Positions 4,322-27,593 of a DNA stretch of 36,706 bases are shown piece by piece (the first letter of the stretch is position 1; each line of letters starts with the position of its first letter). The DNA comes from Enorma burkinafasonensis (lineage in GTDB: Bacteria > Actinomycetota > Coriobacteriia > Coriobacteriales > Coriobacteriaceae). Under the pieces are notes generated by a model. That model searched no databases. It had not been told where the DNA came from and was given only the letters and a program-made list of their open reading frames with translations. The stretch is from positions 1-36,706 of the forward strand of contig NZ_LR597514.1 of NCBI RefSeq assembly GCF_902150035.1. The letters are read 5' to 3'. Position numbers and translations under genes: made by a program.

Positions 4322-4378
4322 AGGCCCGACCGAACGAAAGCCCAACCGGCCCGCAGCCGGTACCATCCGTGCAGCGCG

Positions 4379-5122: not shown

Positions 5123-5226
5123 GCGCCCTCCCCTGCGACATCCGGCTCTCGCCGGCTCACGTGCATACAAGCGTCTTGTACCCAGTCCGGAGCTCGTCCC
5201 GGCGCTCGAGGGGCGCCCCGTAGAAG

Positions 5227-5366
5227 GTTCAGGCAAGAATACTGTGGGTCCTTTCGCACCGCCGGCCGAGAGCGCCCGTCTCGAAAGCAAAACCGCAGGA
5301 TTTTTGAGCCTGCATCCGCGGTCAAGCGCACGGCTTCCATTTGACCCACAGTATTCTTGCTTGAAC
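5227..5366 (+). repeat. Palindromic repeat element, copy A (140 bp)
   Basis: The outer 24 bases at 5227-5250 and 5343-5366 are inverted copies with one mismatch; they begin GTTC and carry AATACTGTGGGTC. The interior has CTTTCG/CGAAAG and GCAGG/CCTGC hairpins. ACCGCAGG lies at 5292-5299, the exact middle. Copies B and C share the length, arm layout and central octamer. This element fills most of the 410-base gap between the Nudix start and the nifJ stop; the remainder is the nifJ terminator and no gene is seen. Confidence 0.8.
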
Positions 5367-5453
5367 GATCGATCGGGCAATACAGCGGTCCGCATCGCGC
5401 GGGCACCGAGGGTCGTTTGGACCTTGAAGCGCCCTGAACCATCCGATCGGCAT

Positions 5454-5488
5454 AAGAAACGCCCCCGCGGGCGAACCCACGGGGGCGT
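5454..5488 (-). terminator. Rho-independent terminator of nifJ
   Basis: ACGCCCCCG (5459-5467) and CGGGGGCGT (5480-5488) form a 9-bp GC-rich stem. On the minus strand it is followed by TTTCTT. It lies 45 bases past the nifJ stop codon. Confidence 0.87.
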
Positions 5489-5532
5489 GTGCGCCTACCG
5501 TGCGCGAGCGGCTGTGCCGGCGCGCTTAAGCC

Positions 5533-9072
<3,540 letters not shown>

Positions 9073-12375: not shown

Positions 12376-12543
12376 CCTGCATGGAGTGCAGGGGGGATGG
12401 CATTTTCTACGCCGCTCCACCCAGGCAGTATCTCATAGCTCGCTAGCTGCCCGCATGTCCACGAGCGGACGCTCGTGCGCGAGCACCACGCACAAACCGA
12501 TATATCGAGCTGCGGTCGCCGCTCCCCTCAAGGGGGTGGCGTA

Positions 12544-13167
12544 ATGGGCGCGCCCAAGACCTATCGCGGGGGTATCACGCGCGAGCAATGGCTCGAGAAC
12601 GAGACCCGCACCGTCGCCCGCCTGATGGCGGACGAGGGGATGTGCGAGCCGGACAACCTCGTCGATGCCGTCACCCAGGGCAACCTCTTCCAGTACCCCA
12701 CCGAGCGCGAGCTCAAGTCCATCACCCGCGCCTGCGCGCGCCGACTCGAGGCGCTCTCCGAAGACCCCAGCCTGCGCGGGCGCCTCATCGAACTCATCGC
12801 GCACGGCACGCCCGACCAGCTCAAGCAGACGAACCTCTACGCCATGATGCGCGACAACCGCATCGTGTGGGAGTTCATGCTCTGCGTGGTCGCCACCAAG
12901 TTCGCGACCTTCGATGCCACCCTGCGAAGGCATGAAATCGCGGACTTTCTTGAAGGCCTGCGCGCGCAGGACGAGAAGGCCGCCCGCTGGAGCGACGCGA
13001 CCCTGGACAAGATCCGTCAGGTGCTCGCCTCCTCCCTCGAGCGCTGCGGTATGTACGACCGCCGCTCCGAACAGCTGAGCCCCCTGCTCATCGACTTCGA
13101 CCTGGAAATGGCCATACGCGCGAACGGTGACGAGCAGGTGCTCGCCGCGTTCGGGCGCACGTCCTAG
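12544..13167 (+). CDS. brxA: BREX protein BrxA (DUF1819)
   Basis: The 207-residue protein matches BrxA of type 1 BREX in size, position and style. It is a small helical, DNA-binding-type protein with a NusB-like fold by family knowledge, and starts MGAPKTYRGGITREQWLENE. BREX blocks phage DNA replication while methylating host DNA; the individual role of BrxA is not settled. The start at 12544 is preferred over 12475 because it gives the normal BrxA N terminus and follows GGGGGTGG. It is the first gene of the operon, 8 bases before brxB. A palindrome-rich leader suggests transcriptional control. Confidence 0.9.
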   Translation: MGAPKTYRGGITREQWLENETRTVARLMADEGMCEPDNLVDAVTQGNLFQYPTERELKSITRACARRLEALSEDPSLRGRLIELIAHGTPDQLKQTNLYAMMRDNRIVWEFMLCVVATKFATFDATLRRHEIADFLEGLRAQDEKAARWSDATLDKIRQVLASSLERCGMYDRRSEQLSPLLIDFDLEMAIRANGDEQVLAAFGRTS

Positions 13168-13175
13168 GAGAGCCC

Positions 13176-13778
13176 ATGACCGCATCCGAATCGCCTTCGC
13201 TCGCCATCAGCTTCGACCTCATCCGCTCGCGCCTGAGCGATCCCGGCTTCCTGAATAGCCAGGGCCTGGGCAACGAAGTGCCGTTCTACGTGTTCGCTTA
13301 CGACGCGGCGCGCGAGGACGAGGTCCGCGAGCGCACCGAGCGCCTGCTGAAGGATGCTGCCGAAGGGGCCATCCCCACGCGGATCACGCGGTTCGACCTG
13401 TGGGACATCTTCTCCCAAATTTGTGAGTACTACGAGATCTTCGACGATCTCGAGCGCATGGAGGCCCAGCAGGGCGACGAGGCGGTTCTGCGCCATATCC
13501 AGGAACTCGCCATGCCCGAGGACTACGTCACCAGAATGGCCGAGCAGTTCGAGCTCGTGCATGGCGCACCAGAGCCGGGCCGCGACGTCCTGCTCATCAC
13601 CGGCGTGGGCAAGGCCTACCCCTTCGTGCGCGCCCACGACATCCTCGAGAACGCCCAGCCGGTGTTCTCACAGATTCCCGTGGTGCTGTTCTATCCCGGC
13701 GTCTACGACGGCCAGTCGCTGCGCCTGTTCGGCTCCATCCAAGACGGCAACTACTACCGGGCGTTCAGCCTGCTCTAA
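13176..13778 (+). CDS. brxB: BREX protein BrxB (DUF1788)
   Basis: The 200-residue protein is the DUF1788/BrxB component of type 1 BREX. Its ending, FSQIPVVLFYPGVYDGQSLRLFGSIQDGNYYRAFSLL, with the LLITGVGKAYPFVRAHDILEN segment before it, is characteristic. It is required for defence in characterised systems, and its biochemical role is unclear. The ATG at 13176 follows AGGAG at short spacing. It sits between brxA and brxC, 33 bases before the chosen brxC start. Soluble, no motif for catalysis visible. Confidence 0.92.
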   Translation: MTASESPSLAISFDLIRSRLSDPGFLNSQGLGNEVPFYVFAYDAAREDEVRERTERLLKDAAEGAIPTRITRFDLWDIFSQICEYYEIFDDLERMEAQQGDEAVLRHIQELAMPEDYVTRMAEQFELVHGAPEPGRDVLLITGVGKAYPFVRAHDILENAQPVFSQIPVVLFYPGVYDGQSLRLFGSIQDGNYYRAFSLL

Positions 13779-13811
13779 GCCCATCCGCCCCGCGTGAAAG
13801 GACCCTCCCCC

Positions 13812-16800
13812 ATGCGCATCAAGGACATGTTCGAGCGCGACATCGACCGCAACATCAACGGCGTCATCAAAGTCGACCAGACAAGCGAAGAGATCATCGA
13901 GCAGGAGCTTTCCGAGTATGTGGTCACGCGCGAGCTGCGCGGGCACTATGCAACCTTTTACCACGCATACTGCCAGGCGCTCGACACTCCCACCGATAAG
14001 ATAGGCGTCTGGATCTCGGGCTCATTCGGCTCAGGTAAGTCGCACTTCCTGAAGATGCTCTCCTACCTGCTTGCCAACCGCGAAGTCGCAGGCAAACGCG
14101 CCCTCGACTACATCGCCCCGCGCTTCGAGGACGAGCTGCTCGCCGCCCAGGCGCGCCGCGCGGCGAGCGCCCCCGCCGAGACCATCCTCTTCAACATAGA
14201 CAGCAAGGGCACCACCAAGGACCAGTCCGCCATCATGCGCACGTTCGCGCGGGTGTTCTACGAGAACCAGGGCTTCTACGGCGCGAGCCTCAAGCTCGCC
14301 CGCCTGGAGCAGCTCATCGAGAGCCAGGGCAAGACGCAGGCGTTCCGCGCGTTGTACGAGGAGGCGTCCGGCCACCCGTGGACCGAGTGGCGCAAGACCT
14401 ACCGTTCCAAGTCCGACCCGGTAATCGCCGCGCTCGAGGCCTCGGGCGTCATGAGCCGCGAAGAGGGCGAACGCTGGTACGATTCGGGCGACGCGGACGA
14501 CCTCTCCATCGACTCGCTCACCGACGAGATCCGCGACTACGTCGAGATGCGCGCCGAGCAGAACGGCGGGCAGTTCCGCCTGCTCTTCATGGTCGACGAG
14601 ATCGGTCAGTACATCGGCACGGACACGAGCCTCATGCTGAACCTGCAGACCCTCGTCGAGGATCTGGGGACGAAATGCGCGGGCCGCGTGTGGGTGGTCG
14701 TCACAAGCCAGCAGGCTATAGACAAGACTTCAGCTTCCTCAGGCAACGATTTCTCGAAAATCCAGGGCCGCTTCAACACGCGCCTGTCGCTTTCCAGCTC
14801 AGACGCCGACGAGGTCATCAAGCGCCGCGTGCTCGCCAAGACCACCGACGCCGAGCAGCTCCTCGAGCTGCGCTACGCCGAGGACGCGGCCGTCCTCAAC
14901 AACCTCTTCTCCTTCAAGGACTCGGTAACCGACCTCACGGGCTATCGCGGTGCGGCGGACTTCTCGGCGACGTTCCCCTTCGCCAACTACCAGTTCAAGC
15001 TCATGCAAAACGTTATGGAAAAGCTTCGCACCCAGGGGGAGAGCAACAAGCACCTCTCGAGCGGCGAGCGCTCCATGCTCTCGGGCTTCCAGGAGGCCGC
15101 GCAGGCGGTTGAGGACCTGGACGAGCACGCGCTCGTGCCGTTCTGGCGCTTCTACGACGGCGTGCAGACCTTCCTGGAAAGCTACCACCGCCGCGTGATC
15201 GACCGCGCGGGCAAGGCAGCGCAGGACGGCCAGGGTCTCGTGGAGTATGACATCCGCGTGCTCAAGCTCCTGTTCATGGTGCGCTGGGTGGATCGCGAGA
15301 TCGCCACGAACATCGATAACATCGTGACCCTCATGACCGATGACGTGCGGGTGAACCGATTGGAGCTGCGTCAGCAGGTGCAGGATTCGCTCGACCGGCT
15401 TATCCACGAGAACTACGTGACACGCAACGGTGACCGCTACCAGTTCCTGACCGATGACGAACAGGAGATCGCCAACCAGATCAAGCGCACGCAGGTCGAT
15501 GCTGCAAAGATCACCGCCAAGGCTGCCGACATCATGTTCAAGAGCGTCTTCGACGAATCCAAACTCGCCCTGGGCAAGAACCAGTTCCCCGTGAATGAGT
15601 ACCTGGACGGCACGCATGTCAGCGGCGCCGGCGGCCTCACGCTCCGGGTGCTTGCCGGCATGGACGGCAGCGAACCGCCCAGCCACGAGGAGCTCATCCT
15701 CATGTCGAGCCGCAACGAGGCCGTGGTGGTGCTGAGTCCCGAGGTCGACTACTACAACCCGCTCATGGAGGCCGCGCGCATCGAGCAGTTCACCAACACG
15801 CTGGTCCACGCCAACCTACCCAAGAACCAGCAGGATATCATCCGCTCCAAGCAGCAGGAGCGCACCCGGCTCGATCGCCAGGCGCGCGACCTCATGGAGC
15901 AGGCGGTGCGCCAGGGCCAGTTCTACGTATACGGCAGTACCGTCACACCCGCGCAGACCGGCTCGGCGAAGAAGATCATCGAGGACTGCCTTGGCCGCCT
16001 GGTGGACGTGACCTACCCCAAGCTCTCCTACATCGACAGGAACTACGACAACGATGCCGATATCAAGCAGATCCTGAACGGCACCATGGCGCTCGAGGGC
16101 CAGCAGCCCAACGCCCGCGCCATCGAGGAACTCGAGCGCAAGCTTTCAATCGATGCCTCGCGCCACACCACGGTAAGCATGGAGGATATCCAGTCGCTCT
16201 ACCAGGCGGCCCCGTACGGATGGCGCGAGCAGGACATCGCCGCCGTGACGGCGGAGCTTCTGGCCTCCAAGCGCGCCAAGCTCGTCTATGCCGGACAGAC
16301 CGTGGATATCCATGACGCCCGACTCGTGGACTACCTGCGCAAGCGCAACATGGTGGGCAAAGTGCAGGTCGAGATGCGCGTCGCCGTGTCGGACGCCATG
16401 CGCTCGCGGGCGCGGCAGGTGACCGAGCGGCTTTGCGGCGTCTACAACCTGCCGACCGACGAGGACGGTCTCGCTGCGAGCGTCCGCGAGTGCCTTGAGG
16501 AGCGTCGCGATAACCTGCAGCACTTAGTGGACGTGGAGTACCGCCGCAACAGCAAGTACCCCGGCTACAGCGAGGTGGCCGACGCCATCCGCCGCATCAA
16601 GGACGTGCTCGCCGTGGGCAGCGACCCAGCGGATCTTTTGGCGGCCGTCTCCAGCAACCGTGACGACCTGCTGGACGATGCGGAGGACCTGAGGGAGATA
16701 GACCACTTCTTCTCGGCCCAGAAGCCCGCGTTCGACGAGGCAGCCGATCTCGTGCGCGACATGGAAAGCGAGCGGGAGTACCTGGCAAGCGATAGCGAGG

Positions 16801-17378
16801 CTATGGCGGCGTTGAAAAAGATCGAAGGCATCCTCACCGAGAAGCGCCCCTACCGCGACATCGCCCAGCTGTTCGACGCAAAGAAGACAATCAAAGACGC
16901 CCACGAGCAGCTCATGAAAGACAAGCGCGAGGACCTGCTCGCCACGCTCGACGATATCTTCAACGGCATCGAAGCACACGCGGCGGAACTTAACGTGAAG
17001 CTCGCAAGCATCGCCGAGACCCGCCTCTCGCGCCGCGGCGCCGTAAACGACGCGACCTCGCTCACCGCACTCGACGCCCTGAAGACGCGCCTCGGCAACG
17101 ACGAGCGCAAGCTCTACGACGAGATCGAGGTTGAACACGAGCGCATCTCGCGCCCGCGCCCAGTGAACACGAACGTGACCGTCACCGCCGAGCCGGCCAA
17201 GGGCACAGGCCCCAAGACGCCGCCGGCCCCCGCGCCCAAGGGCACAACCGTGAGCCGCACCCGCGTCTTCAAGCCGCGCCGCCTGCACAGCGAGGTGGAG
17301 ATCGAGGCTTACCTCGCCCAGGCCCGGGCCGATCTTCTGCGGGCGCTCACCGGGAACGACTACGTCAAGCTCGACTAA
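13812..17378 (+). CDS. brxC: BREX P-loop ATPase BrxC
   Basis: The 1,188-residue protein is the large ATP-binding BREX component, in the family with PglY (DUF6079-type). It starts MRIKDMFERDIDRNINGVIKVDQ, the hallmark opening. Walker A is GSFGSGKSHFLK (about 71-82); a Walker B-like stretch RLLFMVDEIGQYIG follows at about 256-269. A long helical C-terminal part precedes a Pro/Lys-rich linker (about 1120-1150) and a final conserved domain with FKPRRLHSEVEIEAYLAQARADLLRAL. The ATG at 13812 is preferred to the GTG at 13794 because AAAGGA then serves as its ribosome binding site. Length is normal. Confidence 0.94.
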   Translation: MRIKDMFERDIDRNINGVIKVDQTSEEIIEQELSEYVVTRELRGHYATFYHAYCQALDTPTDKIGVWISGSFGSGKSHFLKMLSYLLANREVAGKRALDYIAPRFEDELLAAQARRAASAPAETILFNIDSKGTTKDQSAIMRTFARVFYENQGFYGASLKLARLEQLIESQGKTQAFRALYEEASGHPWTEWRKTYRSKSDPVIAALEASGVMSREEGERWYDSGDADDLSIDSLTDEIRDYVEMRAEQNGGQFRLLFMVDEIGQYIGTDTSLMLNLQTLVEDLGTKCAGRVWVVVTSQQAIDKTSASSGNDFSKIQGRFNTRLSLSSSDADEVIKRRVLAKTTDAEQLLELRYAEDAAVLNNLFSFKDSVTDLTGYRGAADFSATFPFANYQFKLMQNVMEKLRTQGESNKHLSSGERSMLSGFQEAAQAVEDLDEHALVPFWRFYDGVQTFLESYHRRVIDRAGKAAQDGQGLVEYDIRVLKLLFMVRWVDREIATNIDNIVTLMTDDVRVNRLELRQQVQDSLDRLIHENYVTRNGDRYQFLTDDEQEIANQIKRTQVDAAKITAKAADIMFKSVFDESKLALGKNQFPVNEYLDGTHVSGAGGLTLRVLAGMDGSEPPSHEELILMSSRNEAVVVLSPEVDYYNPLMEAARIEQFTNTLVHANLPKNQQDIIRSKQQERTRLDRQARDLMEQAVRQGQFYVYGSTVTPAQTGSAKKIIEDCLGRLVDVTYPKLSYIDRNYDNDADIKQILNGTMALEGQQPNARAIEELERKLSIDASRHTTVSMEDIQSLYQAAPYGWREQDIAAVTAELLASKRAKLVYAGQTVDIHDARLVDYLRKRNMVGKVQVEMRVAVSDAMRSRARQVTERLCGVYNLPTDEDGLAASVRECLEERRDNLQHLVDVEYRRNSKYPGYSEVADAIRRIKDVLAVGSDPADLLAAVSSNRDDLLDDAEDLREIDHFFSAQKPAFDEAADLVRDMESEREYLASDSEAMAALKKIEGILTEKRPYRDIAQLFDAKKTIKDAHEQLMKDKREDLLATLDDIFNGIEAHAAELNVKLASIAETRLSRRGAVNDATSLTALDALKTRLGNDERKLYDEIEVEHERISRPRPVNTNVTVTAEPAKGTGPKTPPAPAPKGTTVSRTRVFKPRRLHSEVEIEAYLAQARADLLRALTGNDYVKLD

Positions 17379-17393
17379 CCCAAAGGACGCACC

Positions 17394-19940
17394 ATGGACA
17401 CCAAGGTTCTCGAGAAGTTCTGCCCCTGGGCGCGCCGCGCGCTCATCGATGCCGTGCACAACCGCTTCGTGAAGTTCAGCCTGGATGACGCCGGACGCAC
17501 CGCCTATCCGGCGGGCTCGGACGTCATCGGCACGGGCGTGATCGATACCGCCACGAAGGCCCAGCGCGACGGGCTCTACGCCCGCATCGAAAAGGCAGGC
17601 TACAGTGCCTTCTGCCAGCAGATGGCCTACACCTGGTTCAACCGCTTCGCGGGCATCCGCTACATGGAGCTCCACGGATTTCTATCCAACGGCGTGCGCA
17701 TGCTCTCCGCACAGGACGGCCGCTTCGACCCGGAATGCCTGCGCGCCGTAGGCGAGCTCGAGCTCGCCGGCCTCGACCGCGAGCGCGCCCTAGACCTCGC
17801 GGCGGAGGGCAGCGATTCGGAGCTCTTCCGCCTCATCCTCATCGCCCAGTGCAACGAGCTCGCCGACGCGCTGCCCGACGTGTTCAGCCACGTGGGCGCT
17901 GCAGACGAGCTCACGCTGCCGGACGGCCTCCTCAACCGGAACGAGAACAACGTCCTCTACCATCTGGTGACGGACATCCCCGAGGAAGCCTGGCAAGACG
18001 TCGAGATCCTGGGCTGGATGTACCAGTTCTACAACGCCGAGCTCAAGGCCGACTTCTTCAAGTCCAAGCGCAAGGCCGCCGTGGAGGATATCGCCCCCGC
18101 CACGCAGCTCTTCACGCCGGAGTGGATCCTGCGCTACATGGTGGACAACTCGCTCGGCCGCCTCTGGATGCTGAACTTCCCCGAGAGCGCACTGCCCGAG
18201 CGCGCCCACGCCGAGAACCCGGCCGACCGCCTGATGGAGTACTACATCGTGCCCGACAGGGAGCACGAGGACTTCATCCGCATCGCGGGCCCGGAGGGCA
18301 TCACCTTCTGCGACCCGGCGTGCGGATCGGGCCATATCCTGGTCTACGCGTTCAAGATGCTCTTCGCCCTGTACGAGGAGCGCGGCTACCGCGAGCGCGA
18401 GATTCCCGAGCTCATCCTCACCAAGAACCTCGCCGGCCTGGAGATCGACCCGCGCGCCGCGCAGATCGCCCAGTTGGCGCTCGCCCTCTGCGCCCGCGAG
18501 CACGACCGTCGCTTCTTCACCCGCAACGTCACCGCCGACGTGCAGGTGCTCGAGAGCGTCGAGCTCGATACCGAGCAGCTCGGGGACGAGCAGCTTGCCG
18601 AGACCCTCGCGCACCTGAGCGAGGTCGGCAGCCTGTTCACGCCCTCCGATACGGATATCGCCCTGCTCGAGGCGCAGAAGGATAGCTCCTCCGCAGCCGG
18701 CCTCTTCGCCGAACCTGCCGGCCAAAGCGTCGAACGGGCCCTGACCGCCTGCAAGGCGCTCTCCCGCCGCTTCGACGTGGTAGTCGCCAACCCGCCCTAC
18801 ATGGGGTCGAGCAGCTTCAACCCCTTCGTGAGCAAGTGGGTGAAGAAGCACTACCCCGACGTTAAGAGCGACCTTTTCGCTGCCTTCATCGTGCGAATCA
18901 TGGACTTCGCGAAGGAGCACGGCGAGATTGGCATCATGTCTCCCTTCGTGTGGATGTTCATCGGCAGCTACGAAAAGCTGCGCAACCGCCTCATCGACGA
19001 GAAGACGCTCACCTCGCTGATCCAGCTCGAGTACTCGGGCTTTGCGGGTGCCACAGTCCCTATCTGCACTTTCACGTTCCATAACTCCTATATTCCGGGA
19101 TACAGGGGCGGGTACGTGCGCCTTGCCGATTTCGTCGGCCCTGCAGTCCAAGGTCCCAAAGCGCTCGAAGCCATCCAGAACCCCGACTGCGGGTGGTTCT
19201 ATCGAGCCGATGCCACGAGGTTCCATGACATGCCAGGGTCACCGATTGCGTATTGGGCTAGCAGCGCTTTGCATGACGCATTTCTGAATGGAAAGTCAGT
19301 GGCCAGTTATTCAAAACCGAAATGTGGCCTATCTGCAGGCACAAACGAACTGTTTCTCAGGAAGTGGTGGGAGGTATCCCATTGTTCAACTTGCTATTCC
19401 GCCCGTGATGCAATCGAAGCAAAATCCTCAACGAAAAGATGGTTTCCATGTAATAAAGGAGGGTCTTTCAGAAAATGGGAAGGCAATAATGATGATTTGA
19501 TTGATTGGCAGGACGACGGCCAAAGGATCAGAAACTATCGGGATGACAACGGTCGACTATTATCGCGACCGCTCAATCTTGATACCTTCTTCAATCCGTC
19601 TGTTACATGGTCTGCAATTTCGAGTGGAGATGTTTCTTTTCGCTATCGTGGACCCGGATATGTCTACGAGCACGCTGGCGCATCGTTATTCGGAACAGAA
19701 GCAGACCTCGCATACTTACAAGGCGCATGCAATAGCTCAGTAATCAGAGTGATCGCAGGGATACTATCTCCGACGCTGAATTTTCAAATCGGTCAAATTG
19801 CCTCATACCCGATTCTCGACACTGACGAGTCTGTGAAATCACAGGTCATCAGTTTCGTCTTATCCCTACGAAAGCTGTCCAAATCCGATTGGGACTCCCA
19901 AGAAACCTCCTGGGATTTCGCCAAGAATCCACTCGTGTAG
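17394..19940 (+). CDS. pglX: BREX adenine methyltransferase PglX, N-terminal and specificity part of a split gene
   Basis: This 848-residue protein contains the catalytic and specificity regions of type 1 PglX, which methylates adenine in a non-palindromic site and marks host DNA as self. Motif I is FCDPACGSGHI (about 304-314); the catalytic motif IV is NPPY (about 465). The later part holds the recognition region and ends with SPTLNFQIGQIASYPIL and DWDSQETSWDFAKNPLV. Full type 1 PglX proteins continue from such a W-D-x-x-ETSWDF-x-x-(H/N)PL sequence into a linker and a conserved C-terminal domain. Here a stop occurs, and that domain is encoded separately at 21822-22796. GC content falls after about 19230. 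The start has AAAGGA upstream. Confidence 0.92.
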   Translation: MDTKVLEKFCPWARRALIDAVHNRFVKFSLDDAGRTAYPAGSDVIGTGVIDTATKAQRDGLYARIEKAGYSAFCQQMAYTWFNRFAGIRYMELHGFLSNGVRMLSAQDGRFDPECLRAVGELELAGLDRERALDLAAEGSDSELFRLILIAQCNELADALPDVFSHVGAADELTLPDGLLNRNENNVLYHLVTDIPEEAWQDVEILGWMYQFYNAELKADFFKSKRKAAVEDIAPATQLFTPEWILRYMVDNSLGRLWMLNFPESALPERAHAENPADRLMEYYIVPDREHEDFIRIAGPEGITFCDPACGSGHILVYAFKMLFALYEERGYREREIPELILTKNLAGLEIDPRAAQIAQLALALCAREHDRRFFTRNVTADVQVLESVELDTEQLGDEQLAETLAHLSEVGSLFTPSDTDIALLEAQKDSSSAAGLFAEPAGQSVERALTACKALSRRFDVVVANPPYMGSSSFNPFVSKWVKKHYPDVKSDLFAAFIVRIMDFAKEHGEIGIMSPFVWMFIGSYEKLRNRLIDEKTLTSLIQLEYSGFAGATVPICTFTFHNSYIPGYRGGYVRLADFVGPAVQGPKALEAIQNPDCGWFYRADATRFHDMPGSPIAYWASSALHDAFLNGKSVASYSKPKCGLSAGTNELFLRKWWEVSHCSTCYSARDAIEAKSSTKRWFPCNKGGSFRKWEGNNDDLIDWQDDGQRIRNYRDDNGRLLSRPLNLDTFFNPSVTWSAISSGDVSFRYRGPGYVYEHAGASLFGTEADLAYLQGACNSSVIRVIAGILSPTLNFQIGQIASYPILDTDESVKSQVISFVLSLRKLSKSDWDSQETSWDFAKNPLV

Positions 19941-19967
19941 TCACCTGATACGAAAGGATAAATCGTT

Positions 19968-20471
19968 ATGTGCCTATTTGCCTATGACTTTGTAGTTATA
20001 GATAGCCTATCAGCTCACAACGACACCCTTGCTGATGGTTGCGCTGCTGTGACCATCAAACTTCAAGCAAGGCTAAACCAAAGTGTTACTACAACAAAAG
20101 AAGATGTAACGCCCTATGAAGAACCGACGATGCCTACCCGCTCATTTTGCAGTGTCATATTCGCACAACTCGTGAACTCCAACGGAACTGAATGGGATTG
20201 GCAGGAACTAGAATCCGGAAAGATCGAACAATCCCTAATCTGGCGAGCTTCCGATCGGCCCCTTTCGTTGCACTTCATCTCACATGAATTACAAGAGATC
20301 GATGAGGGAGCTCGCCTAACAGTCGAATTAAAATCAAGCGATCGAAAGGCGGCTCGACAGATCTGCTCATTCGTCTACGAAAACCACTCATGGAGATCGA
20401 CGGAGGAAACAGCAGGCGTTCTAAAGAAACAGTTTGAGCAACCTCGACAGCGTAGAAGCCAACATCAATGA
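19968..20471 (+). CDS. Unrecognised 167-residue protein nested between the pglX halves
   Basis: I do not recognise the family. The gene begins 27 bases after the pglX N-terminal stop, with GAAAGG ahead of its ATG, so it should be cotranscribed. The first 50 residues or so look irregular. From the inner Met (MPTRSFCSVIFAQLVNSNGTEWDWQELESG) the protein looks like a small alpha/beta domain and ends in a basic glutamine-rich tail (KKQFEQPRQRRSQHQ). An inner start at that Met is possible. It has no membrane segment. It lies in the low-GC block, unlike the rest of BREX, so transfer is likely. Roles as a BREX accessory, an inhibitor or a passenger cannot be separated from sequence. Confidence 0.68.
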   Translation: MCLFAYDFVVIDSLSAHNDTLADGCAAVTIKLQARLNQSVTTTKEDVTPYEEPTMPTRSFCSVIFAQLVNSNGTEWDWQELESGKIEQSLIWRASDRPLSLHFISHELQEIDEGARLTVELKSSDRKAARQICSFVYENHSWRSTEETAGVLKKQFEQPRQRRSQHQ

Positions 20472-20962
20472 ACCTGCGCAAAAGAGGATTCCGCTTAATT
20501 GAATATTCAATTGGGGCCAATTTTTCAGGTGACCCTAAGGTTTACTCATCCGTCGCTTGCAATCACACCACCATGAGGCCAACGGCTGCATGCGATCGGT
20601 GCCCTAGACGGCGCCTATTGGTTTGTTCAGGAGCTGCCCACCGTTTGGCTGTAGCGATTCTTCGACCTCTCACATATGCAAGCCTGGTCCTTGAACAGAA
20701 ACTTGATAGGCACGATGATGTCGCGATCAAATTGGATGAGAATCGAAACCCAGAAGCAAATCGCGGAAAAGGCGAGTTGCGCGCTTCGTCGCCTTTTCCA
20801 CTAGGGGGTTATAGCGCGTTACCCCGTACCGGGGGGATCCCCCGGCCCTTGGAAGCCCACCCTCACGGTCAGACCATGCCAACAAAAGTGCGCGCATGGC
20901 ATCTCGACCTTGCTGTCCGTCGACAGCAAGCCCTTACGTGCAGGGTATCACTACTCGCCGGC
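20472..20962. other. Multi-hairpin non-coding tract inside pglX
   Basis: There is no credible gene in these 491 bases. Three strong inverted repeats are present: GGAAAAGGCGA/TCGCCTTTTCC (20765-20799, 11 bp, loop 13, T-rich 3' arm on either strand), CCGGGGG/CCCCCGG (20829-20845) and CTTGCTGTC/GACAGCAAG (20909-20930, 9 bp, loop 4). GGGGT/ACCCC flanks a loop containing GCGCG, which could pair with the GCGCGC in the loop of the first hairpin. The arrangement suggests a structured RNA or the 3' end of an element linked to the DUF3800 gene, which ends at 20963. The first hairpin may also end transcription from either side. Confidence 0.5.
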
Positions 20963-21634
20963 TTACAGCTGCTTCCTTCGGATCTTTTTGAGATAGTTCT
21001 TCGTAAAGCAGCGCTTATCGCCGAAGAACCTATGATCGGTCGGGCTATCCATGTGCCGGTCGTATCGCAACGCCGCCAACTCAATACCGCAAACATAATC
21101 CGCAACCCGAGACATGAAATAGTCTTTCGGCATGGCATTTCGATAGATAGCGGCGTTGCTCGACAAACACGTATGAACCGCGCGATGCACGGCGCGTTTT
21201 ACTGTTTGCTGCCCGTTGTCGTAGTAGATTTTGACGCAATCATAACCAAAAAAGAATTCAACCTGTTCCCTAATGAACGATACGAGCTCCCGCTCGATAC
21301 GTTCTGCCAACGCATATTCGCTAGAGAACTCTCGCTTTCTATATCGCAGAACCATGTAACGAAAAGGCGTCTTCTCGACGAAGACCTGAAAGCGCATGAA
21401 ATAACTCTTCCGCATACTCAAATCAATTTGATCGTATTGTTCATGACCGCGAACCACCGGCGTGAAGTGAAATGTTCGCTCAATCAACCCGGCATCGGAA
21501 AGTGCCTGACGATATCGACTGATACTCGTGGAGATGTCGACCGATTGGTCGTGAAAAACAAATCCGACCAGATAGTAGTCGGAGCAGGATCCAACATCAC
21601 CGGACTCATCAATGAAGATCGAAAGCTCCCTCAT
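20963..21634 (-). CDS. DUF3800 domain protein
   Basis: The 223-residue protein opens with MRELSIFIDESGDVG, the acidic D-E-S-G start of the DUF3800 family. It has the expected later marks YYDNGQQ (about 137-143), an A-D-Y-V-C segment (VADYVCGIEL) and a basic C terminus. The conserved acidic residues suggest a nuclease-like active site, but I know of no firm function; members are frequent on mobile DNA. It lies antisense to the BREX operon between the two halves of pglX, in the low-GC block, and is preceded by a structured leader. The ATG at 21634 follows a GGCGGGGGATGG stretch, which can pair with that leader. Confidence 0.86.
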   Translation of the reverse strand: MRELSIFIDESGDVGSCSDYYLVGFVFHDQSVDISTSISRYRQALSDAGLIERTFHFTPVVRGHEQYDQIDLSMRKSYFMRFQVFVEKTPFRYMVLRYRKREFSSEYALAERIERELVSFIREQVEFFFGYDCVKIYYDNGQQTVKRAVHRAVHTCLSSNAAIYRNAMPKDYFMSRVADYVCGIELAALRYDRHMDSPTDHRFFGDKRCFTKNYLKKIRRKQL

Positions 21635-21720
21635 GTGGCCATCCCCCGCCTAATAAAAATGCCGGGGGACACCCCCCGGCGAAGAGACAGCCCTCCTTGT
21701 GTGGAGCGCTGCTCTATTTA
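21635..21720 (-). ncRNA. Structured leader of the DUF3800 gene, candidate DUF3800-type RNA motif
   Basis: Read on the minus strand, CAGCGCTCC (21711-21703) pairs with GGAGGGCTG (21696-21688) with one G-G mismatch and a 6-base loop. Then GCCGGGGG (21680-21673) pairs with CCCCCGGC (21668-21661), followed at once by ATTTTTATT as in an intrinsic terminator. The ribosome binding stretch GGCGGGGGATGG (21650-21639) can pair with TCCCCCG of the second hairpin, an alternative to the terminator-like stem. Structured RNAs upstream of DUF3800 genes are a known class from comparative genomics. The similarity here is by eye and context. Confidence 0.6.
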
Positions 21721-21745
21721 TACCACTCGCCGGTTCGTCTATTCA

Positions 21746-21751
21746 ATCATA
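21746..21751 (-). promoter_or_regulatory. Candidate -10 of the DUF3800 leader
   Basis: TATGAT on the minus strand stands about 25 bases before the start of the leader hairpins. The first LexA-like box (21760-21773) would cover its spacer and -35. No clear -35 hexamer is seen. Confidence 0.4.
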
Positions 21752-21759
21752 CCAAAATA

Positions 21760-21773
21760 CGAACACATGTTCT
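21760..21773. promoter_or_regulatory. LexA-like box 1 (CGAACACATGTTCT)
   Basis: It matches the GAAC-N4-GTTC core of Gram-positive and actinobacterial SOS boxes, with CGAAC-R-N-R-Y-GTTY preserved. It is the exact inverse of box 2 over the 12-base core. It lies between the divergent DUF3800 gene and the pglX C-terminal half. Confidence 0.6.
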
Positions 21774-21785
21774 CCACCTTGAGAA

Positions 21786-21799
21786 CGAACATGTGTTCT
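21786..21799. promoter_or_regulatory. LexA-like box 2 (CGAACATGTGTTCT)
   Basis: This is the second GAAC-N4-GTTC box, centred 26 bases from the first and ending 22 bases before the start codon of the pglX C-terminal half. A bound repressor would sit on or just before that start region. Confidence 0.6.
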
Positions 21800-21821
21800 A
21801 CATATGGAAAGGCGGCATAGT

Positions 21822-22796
21822 ATGGCTACCCTCATACGCGACAAGTACGAAGCGCACAAAGCCGAGGTCAACGAGCGCTTCGACCAGCTCAAGGCCAATG
21901 AGGAGGAGCTCAACCGCATCTTCGCGGAGATCTACAACATGGTGGGCGAAGTCCCCATCGAGGTCGAGGACAAGTACGTCTCGGTCGCGCGGATCTTCGA
22001 CACCAAGGAGGAGATTCCGGAGAGCTTCAAGGGCAGCAACTACGTGCGCACCAAGCGTGACGAGATCGTCTCGCTCATATCCTACGCCGTAGGCTGCATG
22101 TTCGGTCGCTACTCGCTCGACGTGGATGGTCTGGTACTTGCCAATCAGGGCGATACCGTAGCGGAATATCTCGCCAAGATGCCCGACCCCGAGCACGTGA
22201 CCTTCATGCCCGATGCAAACAACGTCCTCCCCATCACCGACGACGAGTACTTCCGCGACGACATCGTAGCGCGCTTCGAGCGGTTCGTCGTCGCGGCGTA
22301 CGGACAGGAGACGCTCGAGGAGAACCTGCAGTTCGTGGCCGACGCGCTCGACCCTACCGCCAAGGGCACGGCCCGCGAGGTCATCCGCCAGTACTTCCTC
22401 AAGGAGTTCTTCGCCGACCATTGCAAAACCTACAAGAAGCGACCCATCTACTGGCTTCTGGACGCTGGCAAGAGGAACAGCTTCAAAGCGCTCTTCTACA
22501 TGCACCGCTACCGCCCCGACCTCATGGCACGCGTCCGCACGGAGTACGTTCACCCGCAGCAGGAGCGCTACCGCGCGCGCCTCGCCGCCATCGAAGCGGC
22601 GCTCGAGACCGCCGACGGCCGCCAGAAGGCAGCCCTCAACAAGGAACATAAGCACGTGAGCGATCAGCTGACAGAGATCGCCAGCTTCGAGGAGAAAATC
22701 CATCGACTTGCTGACCAAATGATCGAGATCGACCTCGACGACGGCGTGAAGGCGAACTACCCCAAGTTCGAAGACGTGTTGGCGAAGATTAAGTAG
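21822..22796 (+). CDS. pglX: C-terminal domain of PglX as a separate gene
   Basis: This 324-residue protein is the conserved C-terminal part of type 1 PglX. It has ERFDQLKANEEELNRIFAEIYNM, then ISYAVGCMFGRYSLDVDGLVLANQGD, DDIVARFERFV, YFLKEFFADHCKTYKKRPIYWLLDAG, ALFYMHRYRPD, and ends with IEIDLDDGVKANYPKF. In intact PglX these follow the ETSWDF segment in one chain; 848 plus 324 residues is about a full PglX. The start at 21822 is preferred over 21804 because GGAAAGG (21806-21812) is then a ribosome binding site at 9 bases. GC content returns to the high value of the operon here. It is followed 10 bases later by pglZ. It probably works by associating with the N-terminal half. Confidence 0.9.
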   Translation: MATLIRDKYEAHKAEVNERFDQLKANEEELNRIFAEIYNMVGEVPIEVEDKYVSVARIFDTKEEIPESFKGSNYVRTKRDEIVSLISYAVGCMFGRYSLDVDGLVLANQGDTVAEYLAKMPDPEHVTFMPDANNVLPITDDEYFRDDIVARFERFVVAAYGQETLEENLQFVADALDPTAKGTAREVIRQYFLKEFFADHCKTYKKRPIYWLLDAGKRNSFKALFYMHRYRPDLMARVRTEYVHPQQERYRARLAAIEAALETADGRQKAALNKEHKHVSDQLTEIASFEEKIHRLADQMIEIDLDDGVKANYPKFEDVLAKIK

Positions 22797-22806
22797 GGCG
22801 GGACAT

Positions 22807-25419
22807 ATGAGGACCACGGACATACAGACCGAGCTGCGGCGGCGGTTCGATGAGACGGATGCCCCCACGGCGAGCGCCATCGTGATCTGGCACGACCCGG
22901 ATGGCGAGTTCGCCGACACGCTCGAAGGGCTCGAGCTCCCCGACATCGAGGTGATACGCGAGGAGCCCGGCCGTCGCTTCGCGCTCAAGCGCGAGCTCAA
23001 CGGCGACCTTACCGGCAGGCAGATTCTGCTCTACCGCCGCCGGCAGCGCAACCTCGTCGGCGACTGGCTCGCCGACGTCGAGGCACGTGCACAGGCGTTC
23101 TCGGCAGACTACCTTTCCGTGCAGATGCGCGAGCTCAACGCCGCCGACACGCCCGAGATGCGCAACGCGTTCTCGGCGCACAAGGCGTTCCTGGCCAAGA
23201 AGACCAACCTCAAGAAGCTTGCGCGCCTGATCGACGCCTACCAGGTGCCGCAGCAGCTCGAGCTCGCCATCATGGCCTGCGCCCTGGGTACGCAGGAGGC
23301 CACCGCCACGCAGGTGCTTATCGCCTACCTCGTGAAGGCCGCGGGCGAGGGTGCGCCCGCGGCGTTCGGTGCACTTGAGCAGGCGGGCGTGGCGGACGCC
23401 TTCACCCGCGCGCTCGCGAGCTGGACCGGTTTTGCCGGCGATGCGCGCGACCTCACGGCGCTCGCGCAGCACGTGCTGCTCTCGGCGCTCGCGCCCACGG
23501 TCCCCGCGGGAGCGCTCGATAGGCTCGGCAGCTGCCACTCCTCCGAGCACGCGCCCTTCTGCCACAGCCTCGTGAACGAATGGGGCCGCAGCGACCTCTC
23601 CGACGAGCTGCTCGAGCTCTGCTGCACCGTCGAAGAGGCGACGGATCTCGAGGCGGTGCTCGGTCGCTTCGACGCCCCGGAGCTCTCCCGCGCCGAGGTG
23701 TTCCCCTGCATCGACGCCCTCATCCTCCGCAGGCTCTTCCGCACCGTGGCAGCCGGCCCCGACGGGGCCGATGCCGCGATGGAGCTCGCGGCAGGGCGCC
23801 GCGGCAGCCTGTGGAGCGGGCGCTTCTCATGCTACTACGAAGGCATCATCTGCGCCGCCCGCATGCAGATCTTCTGTCGCGAGCGCGGCCCCGAGCTCGG
23901 CGCCATGACCGCGGAGGTGCTCTGGAAGCGCTACACCGCAGAGTACTGGCACATGGACCGCTGGTACCGCGAGCTCCATGTCGCCTTCGCCCAGGCGGTC
24001 CGCGCCGGCGAGTACGGGCTCGACGAGGACTTCCGCTCCTGCTGCACCGCGCTGGAAGACCTCTACAAGGGCTGGTTCCTGAAGGAGCTCTCGCGTCGCT
24101 GGGCGTCCGCTGTCGAGGGCGACCTCGCGAGGACCGGCTACGTGAACGGCATCCCGCGCCAGCTCGATTTCTACCTCGATGAGGTCGAGCCGGTCCTGCG
24201 CACCAAGAAGCGCGCCTGGGTCGTGGTGTCTGACGCGCTCCGCTTCGAGGTCGCGGCCGAGCTCGCCGAGCATCTGGAGCGCGAGACCAAGGGCAACTGC
24301 GACCTGGGCGCCGCGCAGGCGGTCTTTCCCTCGATCACCAAATGCGGCATGAGCGCGCTCTTGCCCAGCACGAGCTTCGCCTACGCCGCCACGAGCTCGG
24401 CCGAGCGCCGCCGCCTCTCCGTACTTACGGACGGCTCCGAGGCGCTCTCGACCGAGGGCCGCCAGGCGCAGATCAGAAAGCACGCGAGCGCATCCGTCGC
24501 CGTGCGCTACGACGACTTCGTGAACGAGATGGGCCGCGCCGAGCGGCGAGCGCTCGTGGGCGACGCCGAGGTGGTCTACCTCTACCACAACACCATCGAC
24601 GCCCTGGGCGACAAGGAGCCCACCGAGCGGAAGGTGTTCACCGCCTGCGGCGAGGCGATCGAGGAGCTCGCCGCCTGCATCCAGCTCATCGTGCGCGAGT
24701 TCGGTGCCTCGAGCGTGATCGCGACCGCCGACCACGGCTTCCTCTACACCGACCGCCCGCTCGCGGAATCCGAGCACGCCTCGGTCGCGGATATCGCCGG
24801 CACGGTCGTGGAGGCCGGGCGCCGCTACGCCGTGACGGAAGGAGACGCCGACGGCGGACCGCTCGTGCGCGTCGCGCTGCCCTGCGCGGCAGACGCGGAA
24901 CCCCTCACGGGCTTCGCCCCGCGCGAGTGCGTGCGCCTGCGCATGGCGGGCGGCGGCGAGAACTACGTCCACGGCGGCATCTCGCTCCAGGAGCTCTGCG
25001 TGCCGGTGCTCCGCTTCGCCAACAAGCGCGCCGGCAGCAAGGGCTACATGGAGAGCGCGCCGGCGGGCATCTCGCTCGTCACGCGCATCGACACCGTGAC
25101 CAACTCCCTCTTTACCCTTGAGTTCCTGCAGGACGAGCCCGTGGGCGGCAAGGTGCTCCCCGCCGAGTACGAGGTCTTCGTGGGCGACGCCGCGCACGAG
25201 CCCGTGACCGACATCGCCCGCGTGGTCGCCGACCGCATCGAGGCGGATGCCACGGCGCGCAAGCTCCACGTGTCGCTCTCGCTCAAGCCCGGCGCCGGGA
25301 CCTCCGAGCGCGAGCTCTACCGCCTCTACGCCCGCAACACGAAGACCCGTGAGGTGCGCGCCCTCTGCGACCTGCGCATCCACGTCGCCTTTGCCCCATC
25401 GATCGATTTTGGATGGTAA
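22807..25419 (+). CDS. pglZ: BREX protein PglZ, alkaline-phosphatase superfamily
   Basis: The 870-residue protein is the type 1 PglZ. Its central PglZ domain has the metal-binding aspartate in WVVVSDALRFEVAAEL (about 470-485), the segment VFPSITKCGMSALLPS with the Thr/Ser region, and ATADHGFLYTDR (about 638-649) with the Asp-His metal ligands of the alkaline-phosphatase fold. The N-terminal third is helical. The C-terminal beta domain ends in CDLRIHVAFAPSIDFGW. Characterised PglZ proteins are essential for BREX and have metal-dependent nuclease or phosphodiesterase activity in some systems. It starts 10 bases after the pglX C-terminal gene and ends next to brxL. Confidence 0.94.
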   Translation: MRTTDIQTELRRRFDETDAPTASAIVIWHDPDGEFADTLEGLELPDIEVIREEPGRRFALKRELNGDLTGRQILLYRRRQRNLVGDWLADVEARAQAFSADYLSVQMRELNAADTPEMRNAFSAHKAFLAKKTNLKKLARLIDAYQVPQQLELAIMACALGTQEATATQVLIAYLVKAAGEGAPAAFGALEQAGVADAFTRALASWTGFAGDARDLTALAQHVLLSALAPTVPAGALDRLGSCHSSEHAPFCHSLVNEWGRSDLSDELLELCCTVEEATDLEAVLGRFDAPELSRAEVFPCIDALILRRLFRTVAAGPDGADAAMELAAGRRGSLWSGRFSCYYEGIICAARMQIFCRERGPELGAMTAEVLWKRYTAEYWHMDRWYRELHVAFAQAVRAGEYGLDEDFRSCCTALEDLYKGWFLKELSRRWASAVEGDLARTGYVNGIPRQLDFYLDEVEPVLRTKKRAWVVVSDALRFEVAAELAEHLERETKGNCDLGAAQAVFPSITKCGMSALLPSTSFAYAATSSAERRRLSVLTDGSEALSTEGRQAQIRKHASASVAVRYDDFVNEMGRAERRALVGDAEVVYLYHNTIDALGDKEPTERKVFTACGEAIEELAACIQLIVREFGASSVIATADHGFLYTDRPLAESEHASVADIAGTVVEAGRRYAVTEGDADGGPLVRVALPCAADAEPLTGFAPRECVRLRMAGGGENYVHGGISLQELCVPVLRFANKRAGSKGYMESAPAGISLVTRIDTVTNSLFTLEFLQDEPVGGKVLPAEYEVFVGDAAHEPVTDIARVVADRIEADATARKLHVSLSLKPGAGTSERELYRLYARNTKTREVRALCDLRIHVAFAPSIDFGW

Positions 25420-25421
25420 CC

Positions 25422-27593
25422 ATGAGCGAGAACACCGCAACCCAGGTGCCCGCCTACGAGCAGGACGCCCTCGACCGCAAGATCATCGACAGCTTCCCCG
25501 GCCTCATCGTGCGCAAGGACCTCACCGCCCTCATGAAACGCGGTGCCGGGATCCCCACCTTCGTGCTGGAGTACCTGCTCGGCATGTACTGCGCCACCGA
25601 CGACCCCGAGGCACTCGATCAGGGCCTCGCGCGCATCCGCAAAATCCTCGCCGAGAACTACGTGCGCACCGAGGAGAGCGAGGTCATCAAGTCGCGCATC
25701 CGCGAACTGGGCCAGTACACCATCATCGACAAGGTGAGCGCCTACCTCGACGAGCGGCGCGACATCTACGTCGCGAGCCTCGCGAACCTCGCCATCGAGC
25801 CCTTCATCATGCCCGACGAATACGTGCGCTCCTACACCAAGATGCTCACCGGCGGCATCTGGTGCATCGCGCGCATCCAGTACCTGCGCCCCGAGGACAT
25901 GGCCGACGACCCGCTCTCCGACATCTTCGCCGACGACCCGGCCGAGAAGACCAAGATCAAGCCCGCCAACACCTCGAAGGGCGCCAAGGGGCCCGAGAAC
26001 TCGCCCTTCCACATCGTGGACCTCACGCCCATCCAGATGCCCAACCTCGACGTGGACGAGATCATCTCCAAGCGCGCCGCCTTCACCACCGACGAGTGGA
26101 TCGCGCTCCTTCTGCGCTCCGCCGGCTACGAGCCGAACGCCCTCTCGCCGCGGGAGCGCCTGCACTTCCTCACCCGCATGGTGCCGCTCATCGAGCTCAA
26201 CTACAACCTCTGCGAGCTGGGTCCGCGCGGCACGGGCAAGTCGCATATCTACACCGAGGTCTCGCCCTACTCCTACCTGCTCTCGGGCGGGCAGGCCACC
26301 ACGGCCATGCTCTTCGCCAACAACACCGCGCGTACCGGCGGCATCGGGTTGGTGGGCCATTGGGACTGCGTCGCGTTCGACGAGGTCGCGGGCATGCACT
26401 ACAAGGACGCCAACGCCATCCAGATCATGAAGGGGTACATGGCCAACGGCACCTTCGGCCGCGGGCGCGAGCTCTTCAACGCCGAGGCCTCGATGGTCTT
26501 CGAGGGCAACATCAACGACTCGGTGGCGAATATCTTGAAGACCACGCACCTCTTCGAGCCGTTCCCGCCGGAGTTCAACAACGACAGCGCGTTCTTCGAC
26601 CGCATCCACTGCTACCTGCCCGGCTGGGAGGTGCCCAAGATGCGCTCCGACCTCATCACCGGGCGCTACAGCCTCATCACCGACTGCCTGTCGGAGTTCT
26701 GCCACGAGATGCGCCGCCGCGACTTCACGCACTACCTCGACCAGTACTTCCGCTTGAACGGCGACTTCAACCGCCGCGACGAGATCGGCGTGCGCAAGAC
26801 CTTCTCGGGTCTCGCGAAGCTCGTCTTCCCCGACGGCAACATGGGCAAGGAGGACGTGCGCATGCTCCTCGAGTACGCCATCGAGGGGCGCCGCCGCGTG
26901 AAGGAGCAGCTCAAGCTCATGGCCGGCATCGAGTTCATGGACGTCAACCTGGGCTATGTCGACGCGGAGAACCCGACCGAGTCCGTCATCGTGCGCGTGC
27001 CCGAGCAGGCCGACGACACCCTGATCCCCGCCGCACCGCTCCTGCCGGGACACGTGTTCGCGATCGGCATGTCGCAGGGCGACGAGATCGCCGTCTACAA
27101 GCTCGAGAACAAGGCCATCACCGGCGAGATGAAGTTCCGCACCGAGGGCATCGGCTACAACAAGCCGGTGAGCGACTCGCTCGACGCGGCGTTCCAACAG
27201 TTCAAGCAGAACGCGCCGCGCCTCGCCGCCGGCATGCACGTCTCCGGCAAGGACTACCTGCTCTACTACAACGACATCCAGAGCAAGGGGCTCTCGGCCG
27301 AGCTCTCGCTCGCGGAGTTCATCGGGCTGTGCTCGGCCGCGGCGAACCGGCCCGTCATCGCCGGCCTCGCGATCCCGGGCATCCTGCGCATCTCGGGCAC
27401 GCTCGAGCCCGTCGCCAACCTGGAGGACGTGATGCGCGTGGCCAAGAACGCCGGCGCCAAGCGCATCTTGCTGCCCATGAGCGCGATCGCGGACCTGCAG
27501 GGCATCGCGTCGGAGCTCATCGGGTCGGTGAGCCCGGAGTTCTACCCCGACGGCGACATCGTTGCCGCCGCCAAGAAGGCGCTCGGGGTGTAG
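25422..27593 (+). CDS. brxL: BREX AAA+ Lon-like protein BrxL
   Basis: The 723-residue protein is BrxL, the last core type 1 BREX gene. It has an AAA+ module with Walker A GPRGTGKSH (about 266-275), the acidic Walker B region in CVAFDEVAGM, and a C-terminal Lon-protease-like domain ending LPMSAIADLQGIASELIGSVSPEFY and KALGV. In Lon the corresponding segment has the catalytic Lys in G-L-K-E; here it reads N-L-E-D, so proteolysis looks unlikely (inference). BrxL assembles into DNA-binding rings in known cases. The ATG at 25422 is chosen because GGATGG then precedes it at useful spacing; an ATG at 25413 would overlap pglZ by 7 bases. It is convergent with the FHA gene, 41 bases away, with no clear terminator between them. 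Confidence 0.93.
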   Translation: MSENTATQVPAYEQDALDRKIIDSFPGLIVRKDLTALMKRGAGIPTFVLEYLLGMYCATDDPEALDQGLARIRKILAENYVRTEESEVIKSRIRELGQYTIIDKVSAYLDERRDIYVASLANLAIEPFIMPDEYVRSYTKMLTGGIWCIARIQYLRPEDMADDPLSDIFADDPAEKTKIKPANTSKGAKGPENSPFHIVDLTPIQMPNLDVDEIISKRAAFTTDEWIALLLRSAGYEPNALSPRERLHFLTRMVPLIELNYNLCELGPRGTGKSHIYTEVSPYSYLLSGGQATTAMLFANNTARTGGIGLVGHWDCVAFDEVAGMHYKDANAIQIMKGYMANGTFGRGRELFNAEASMVFEGNINDSVANILKTTHLFEPFPPEFNNDSAFFDRIHCYLPGWEVPKMRSDLITGRYSLITDCLSEFCHEMRRRDFTHYLDQYFRLNGDFNRRDEIGVRKTFSGLAKLVFPDGNMGKEDVRMLLEYAIEGRRRVKEQLKLMAGIEFMDVNLGYVDAENPTESVIVRVPEQADDTLIPAAPLLPGHVFAIGMSQGDEIAVYKLENKAITGEMKFRTEGIGYNKPVSDSLDAAFQQFKQNAPRLAAGMHVSGKDYLLYYNDIQSKGLSAELSLAEFIGLCSAAANRPVIAGLAIPGILRISGTLEPVANLEDVMRVAKNAGAKRILLPMSAIADLQGIASELIGSVSPEFYPDGDIVAAAKKALGV

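Follow-up and report, generated by a model that had tools for sequence, protein, structure and literature searches.

In type 1 BREX systems PglX (BrxX) has been described with solved structures (8c45, 9ewz; PMC11341690, PMC11842806). Its published borders are 651-837 for the TRD and 838-1205 for the C-terminal domain, and its homology to MmeI stops about 320 residues short of the C-terminus (PMC11341690). The stretch of Enorma burkinafasonensis DNA analyzed here (36,706 nucleotides, hereafter the window) resembles these systems in its six core genes and in the PglX sequence, which can be followed from end to end, but its PglX is encoded as two proteins that part where the spacer begins, and 1.86 kb of other DNA, holding ORF167 on the plus strand and a DUF3800 gene on the minus strand, separates the halves. 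A first-pass annotation of the window had overlooked this interval, which is the point that changes the picture most. Neither the split gene nor the place of its cargo is described in the open-access papers that we found, an earlier remark on split pglX elsewhere being conceivable, and a 2026 survey of BREX (PMC12839542) applies neither ‘split’ nor ‘fission’ to BrxX. Three further systems invite comparison. In the phase-variable pglX of lactobacilli, an integrase separates a 1198-aa PglX from a partial copy of 743 aa (L. rhamnosus; PMC7513527), and spare methyltransferase-TRD copies with a recombinase beside pglX also occur, in split form, in two of the loci that we compared (L150 and L161). 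The window, in contrast, has no spare copy, no recombinase was found in the interval between its halves, and other genes stand there. PrrC, in the PrrI type Ic restriction-modification locus (PMC3506569, PMC3710099), is held inactive by its restriction-modification complex as long as no phage anti-restriction sets in (PMC3506569); in relatives of the window, genes for HEPN or PrrC/RloC-like effectors likewise lie within the methyltransferase locus and are proposed, by analogy, to be guards, but here the effector gene separates the two parts of a single enzyme gene. Lastly, the DUF3800 gene shares its domain and a structured leader ahead of the gene with ncRNA-linked RNase H-like proteins (PMC10910872), from which it differs in a leader that matched no family in Rfam 15, in the LexA boxes of its promoter region and in its location inside BREX; no link of DUF3800 with BREX was found in the open-access literature.

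The BREX operon of the window is complete and of type 1, with all six core genes (brxA, brxB, brxC, pglX, pglZ, and brxL) in a single operon on the plus strand in the order brxA, brxB, brxC, pglX-N, the interval or slot, pglX-C, pglZ, and brxL (Table 1). The GC content of the TRD part and of the region between the halves is 0.47-0.55 vs 0.60-0.70 in the rest of the operon nearby.

Table 1. Features of the type 1 BREX operon and of the slot between the pglX halves (positions in the window)
Feature	Position	Strand	Basis or remark
brxA	12475..13167	+	PF08849 BrxA, E 4.5e-42
brxB	13176..13778	+	PADLOC PDLC02463, E 1.7e-54
brxC	13794..17378	+	PADLOC PDLC02471 full length; Pfam BrxC domains
pglX-N	17394..19940	+	848 aa; PDLC02521 1-869 of 1174 positions; NF033452 1-899 of 1210 positions; 8c45 1-885
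ORF167	19968..20471	+	First slot gene, starts 27 nt past pglX-N
DUF3800 gene	20963..21634	-	PF12686 E 2.1e-4; predicted RNase H-like nuclease; divergent from pglX-C
Intrinsic-terminator-like hairpin in DUF3800 leader	21661..21680	-	8 G-C pairs and a T run
Promoter-like TTGAAT-N18-TATAAA for DUF3800	21717..21746, approximate	-	Read from sequence
LexA box 1, GAACACATGTTC	21761..21772	.	Exact GAACN4GTTC
LexA box 2, GAACATGTGTTC	21787..21798	.	26 bp from box 1
pglX-C	21822..22796	+	324 aa; PDLC02521 875-1170; NF033452 905-1209; 9ewz 891-1195
pglZ	22807..25419	+	PF08665 E 3.6e-45; PDLC02564 full length
brxL	25413..27593	+	PF13337, PF20442; PDLC02506

The product of pglX-N comprises an N-terminal helical domain, an N6-adenine methyltransferase (GSG, NPPY) and the TRD, and ends at ETSWDFxxNPLV directly before the stop codon, and that of pglX-C comprises the spacer and the BREX-specific C-terminal region. 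Because the two match adjoining stretches of the same full-length models (PADLOC PDLC02521, NCBIfam NF033452; Table 1), only about five model positions lie between them. Together they cover the full domain set of NF033452, which no single polypeptide carries, the model being spread over two proteins; against its cut-off of 500 bits pglX-N alone scores above (836) and pglX-C alone below (371). When the halves were aligned with the solved structures, pglX-C was found to begin at about 878-891 of 9ewz and to reach 1195, which, combined with the published borders of the TRD and the C-terminal domain, puts the cut where the spacer begins, near the end of the MmeI homology. At the level of sequence the cut is thus seen to separate an MmeI-like part (helical domain, methyltransferase, and TRD) from a BREX-specific spacer and C-terminal part. 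When homologues from this order that carry a fused gene are compared, their linker lines up with the beginning of the split C gene, therefore no conserved segment is missing, and the result that would have refuted the first-pass annotation was not obtained. Plausible ribosome binding sites precede both genes (AAAGGA for pglX-N, AAAGG for pglX-C) and neither has an internal stop. An alternative ATG at 21804 would extend pglX-C to 330 aa, but the 324-aa start is favored by the conservation of MATLIxDKYEA in relatives and by the AAAGG just upstream. The first-pass annotation had described the two ORFs correctly in length and coordinates, and its proposals of a split at a domain border, good ribosome binding sites and no decay inside either gene agree with what we observed.

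We then looked at how far this split extends beyond the window, in a set of genomes that includes drafts and MAGs. A PglX-C homologue was present in 22 of the 67 family genomes, nearly always as a separate ORF of 300-370 aa, and at order level in several families (55/397 genomes); a named scan located the split in Collinsella, Ellagibacter, Adlercreutzia, Enterorhabdus, and Atopobiaceae. The joint is strikingly uniform, as nearly all N genes in the fetched loci stop directly past DWDSxETSWDFKRxPLV and nearly all C genes start with MATLIxDKYEAxKAEVNxRFxQLKANEEELN. When 97 C parts were placed in a tree, the split genes of Coriobacteriia formed a single clade of 35 rows (SH-aLRT 92), and five changes were counted over the whole tree, at least four of them forced by well-supported branches. 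Splits were also seen in Bacillota, in Ruminiclostridium (L138), in Streptococcaceae, Enterococcus, and Lactobacillus (L144, L150, L161) and in Ruminococcus (L146). These comparisons indicate that the split became fixed in about 35 Coriobacteriia loci through one early fission and arose separately in Bacillota. Furthermore, pairwise dN/dS against five relatives was 0.08-0.25 for pglX-C and 0.22-0.45 for residues 1-560 of pglX-N, the TRD part being saturated, which indicates that both halves have been kept intact and that PglX-C evolves under purifying selection.

In loci with the order N-C the gap between the halves ranges from 713 to about 6,900 bp and its contents, for which gene calls were ORF-based, are varied; the start of the first slot gene is often no more than a few bases away from the pglX-N stop codon. 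Close pairs of Collinsella loci reveal the borders of the slot. L038 and L040 are 93.7% identical in pglX-N up to the stop codon and 93.4% identical from the start of pglX-C, with unrelated DNA in the slot, and L036/L042 and L039/L043 present the same pattern (flanks 92-94% identical across the three pairs). Conversely, L036 and L043 have a common slot (95%, from the last approximately 20 codons of pglX-N) and different TRDs. TRD and cargo have thus been exchanged separately, and the DNA from the pglX-N stop codon to the pglX-C start, as judged by these alignments, behaves as a slot whose content is replaced independently of the TRD. In six fetched loci (L086-L091) the order is reversed, with pglX-C ahead of pglX-N; one of these, L090, is a long-branch row that lies outside the main Coriobacteriia clade of the C-part tree.

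The cargo among related loci includes candidate HEPN-type RNases, SIR2, a PrrC/RloC-like ATPase, helicases, and DUF3800. The commonest first slot gene, found in 13 loci, represents a single family, whose RNxxAH motif is invariant in 12/12 aligned members. Its best Pfam match, in 10 of the 12, is HEPN pEK499_p136 (PF18736), a weak one (best E 1.2e-4, sub-cut-off in the members shown), its structure model has a mean pLDDT of 68 with no significant match in a fold search of the PDB, and its profile had zero matches to PDB sequences; the RNxxAH motif and the weak Pfam matches hint that it may be a HEPN protein. HEPN_RiboL-PSP-type genes occur in two loci (one scanned, above the cut-off) and SIR2-like genes in two (one scanned: SIR2_2), and further loci hold a DrmD/DpdE-like helicase or a PrrC/RloC-type AAA_13 protein. 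In the window, ORF167 matched no family in Pfam, PADLOC, or NCBIfam and its single-sequence structure model was poor (pLDDT 35); as no function is assigned to it, it is the DUF3800 gene and the relatives that suggest effectors in this slot. The DUF3800 product scores 22.5 bits against PF12686, above the gathering cut-off of 21, and homologues were found in 18 further copies of related loci. The slot is a defined place in which BREX-linked effectors may be sought, and its contents differ among close relatives.

Thus, combined together, we consider it probable that the window encodes an obligate two-subunit PglX in a complete type 1 BREX operon, with an exchangeable cargo slot. The two products would come together again in the usual PglX fold and assemble with BrxB, BrxC, and PglZ. 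With the constant C part split off, specificity cassettes (the 3′ part of pglX-N) could be swapped with the reading frame unbroken, and so could cargo cassettes. By analogy with PrrC, the cargo (HEPN, SIR2, PrrC/RloC-like, helicase, DUF3800) may form a backup layer of effectors once BREX is overcome; in the window it would consist of ORF167 and the DUF3800 nuclease. A point that counts against re-association is that the cloned C-terminal domain of Salmonella PglX could not be expressed alone (PMC11341690), a construct that included the TRD and hence had another cut. Could the halves instead be remnants of a gene into which a DUF3800 element was inserted? The insert is indeed low in GC and fused-gene relatives exist, but the joint is identical in dozens of genomes whose inserts differ or lack DUF3800, both halves are under purifying selection and each has its own start, stop, and ribosome binding site, so that we regard decay as scarcely credible; a pseudogene or an assembly break was rejected on the conservation of the joint and on selection. 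In these Collinsella-related gut bacteria PglX is permanently two proteins, with a slot for exchangeable defense and toxin-like genes between their coding sequences, and is therefore to be read as an old working design and no broken gene, as the first-pass annotation, which called for a search for the same split in other genomes, had suspected; this suspicion is now strongly supported, and split pglX loci should not be annotated as pseudogenes. A further explanation takes the split chiefly as a specificity switch, in which displacement of the constant C part freed the 3′ end of pglX-N for inversion or replacement and the cargo genes are passengers. In L150 (Enterococcus) and L161 (Lactobacillus) the slot does contain an inverted spare copy of the methyltransferase half and TRD, accompanied by a tyrosine recombinase (PF00589) and by inverted repeats. 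Such a copy also lies next to the split genes of two Atopobiaceae-type loci with C before N (L087, L088), and TRDs are exchanged among close Collinsella. On the other hand, the window genome has a single pglX-N and no spare TRD, and no long matching inverted repeats were found in the window, so that the marks of an invertible pglX (spare inverted TRD, inverted repeats, and recombinase), all seen in L150 and L161, were not found there, and a phase-variation cassette in the window was rejected as both the spare copy and the long inverted repeat are absent. Most Coriobacteriia N-C loci also have no spare copy, and fused pglX genes exchange TRDs as well, hence the split is not needed for such exchange; a switch as its chief purpose is possible, yet we think it doubtful. 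It is also conceivable that PglX-N alone is the methyltransferase, MmeI-like and complete without the C part, with PglX-C only a restriction-side adaptor. The MmeI homology, which stops some 320 residues short of the end of PglX (PMC11341690), does run out close to the split, but intact PglX uses C-terminal residues in its contacts with DNA and Ocr (PMC11842806), intact PglX without the other BREX parts does not methylate, and we hold this to be improbable. The two-subunit PglX that we favor is a natural, evolution-tested two-piece enzyme in which the generic methyltransferase and TRD stand apart from the BREX-specific C-terminal region, and since the halves are on separate genes the role of that region can be tested directly by omitting one gene.

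The region common to the DUF3800 gene and pglX-C deserves separate treatment. GAACN4GTTC is the SOS box of the Enorma burkinafasonensis genome, with two copies before lexA and one each before recA and ruvC, and the pair of boxes in the window, which end 50 and 24 nt ahead of the pglX-C start, matches the lexA/recA operator motif exactly; chance pairs within 40 bp are expected about 0.014 times genome-wide. A pair with the same spacing recurs in L026, L030, L032, and L033. If pglX-C, with pglZ and brxL, were expressed from a LexA-repressed divergent promoter, DNA damage would supply the C subunit and thereby switch BREX on or change its stoichiometry, in line with the proposal of the first-pass annotation that the N part could lack activity before the C part is made and that BREX assembly would then be conditional. 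Two exact boxes near the pglX-C start, found in the same place in L026, L032, and L033 and imperfectly in L029, make such a reading possible, and an antisense gene does stand between pglX-C and the upstream genes. However, the boxes go with DUF3800. An exact box lies within 260 nt upstream of 8/19 DUF3800 copies vs 0.4% of random 260-nt windows, and when one mismatch is allowed the figures are 15/19 vs 6.9%; boxes accompany DUF3800 outside the slot too (L037, L039, L041, L043), face another gene instead of pglX-C in L030, L075, and L076, and have decayed in L027, a locus that has lost DUF3800 but retains an intact pglX-C. In the majority of split loci no box stands ahead of pglX-C, and no good plus-strand promoter was found before this gene in the window. 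Since the boxes follow DUF3800 beyond the slot and decay where it is lost, we assign them to DUF3800 first; putative LexA control fits this gene better than pglX-C, for which it is possible and was rejected as the main reading, and conditional BREX assembly appears very unlikely. We give just as little credence to a combined version, in which the joint of a two-subunit PglX is a guard-effector slot, the C subunit and the RNase H-like nuclease share a LexA-controlled divergent promoter, and damage releases the nuclease and sets the amount of BREX complex; a joint search for BREX, LexA, and pglX returned nothing relevant in the accessible part of the open-access literature. Given a promoter region with a double LexA operator, the nuclease itself is predicted to be DNA-damage-induced. 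A consensus promoter scan of the slot called no promoter, TTGAAT-N18-TATAAA included; this element is conserved in most relatives, and the hairpin of the DUF3800 leader is kept in 16 copies.

The DUF3800 gene of the slot, the DNA between pglX-N and pglX-C, is preceded by a leader with two predicted hairpins, of which the one further on is an intrinsic terminator. Both were found to be kept across 16 aligned copies, and at 6 of the 15 predicted pairs both sides are changed in some copy. A search of Rfam 15 with this leader returned no match. The leader may represent a new DUF3800-linked RNA or an attenuator.

In three related loci the slot holds a gene for a protein of 1140-1205 aa, divergent to the DUF3800 gene with the LexA box pair in between. 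The L030 member matched nothing in Pfam or PADLOC, and its same-genome counterpart (L117) had no match in NCBIfam. On their minus strand, the slots of L028, L031, L080, L084 and L085 encode short peptides that are hydrophobic and have a basic tail, e.g. MDWLYRFLSLVALVIKLLNEAIKLVSKAQGYIRERR, and that resemble type I toxins in appearance. Elsewhere in the Enorma genome, the genes downstream of two LexA boxes resemble, by eye, HicA-type and RelE/HigB-type toxins.

Coordinates of leader, slot-protein, LexA-box and pglX-N features
Feature	Locus	Position	Strand	Remark
DUF3800 gene leader	window	21655-21745	-	two hairpins, second a predicted intrinsic terminator
Slot protein family, 1140-1205 aa	L030	6906-10523		also in L075 and L076 slots
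LexA box	L098	C16:136118		short distance upstream of toxin-like gene
LexA box	L100	C19:44862		short distance upstream of toxin-like gene
Interruption of pglX-N	L082	about 4302-6595		

Unusual forms of the methyltransferase genes were also noticed. In L082 about 2.3 kb interrupts pglX-N after residue 144. The 891-aa pglX-N of L033 extends beyond the usual stop, and among full-length split N genes in the N-C order it is the only one found to do so. L093 carries two fused pglX genes in tandem, with pglZ on one side and brxL on the other. The C-before-N split form is present in a metagenome-assembled genome labelled Actinomycetaceae (L132), which groups inside Coriobacteriia and may have been mis-binned.
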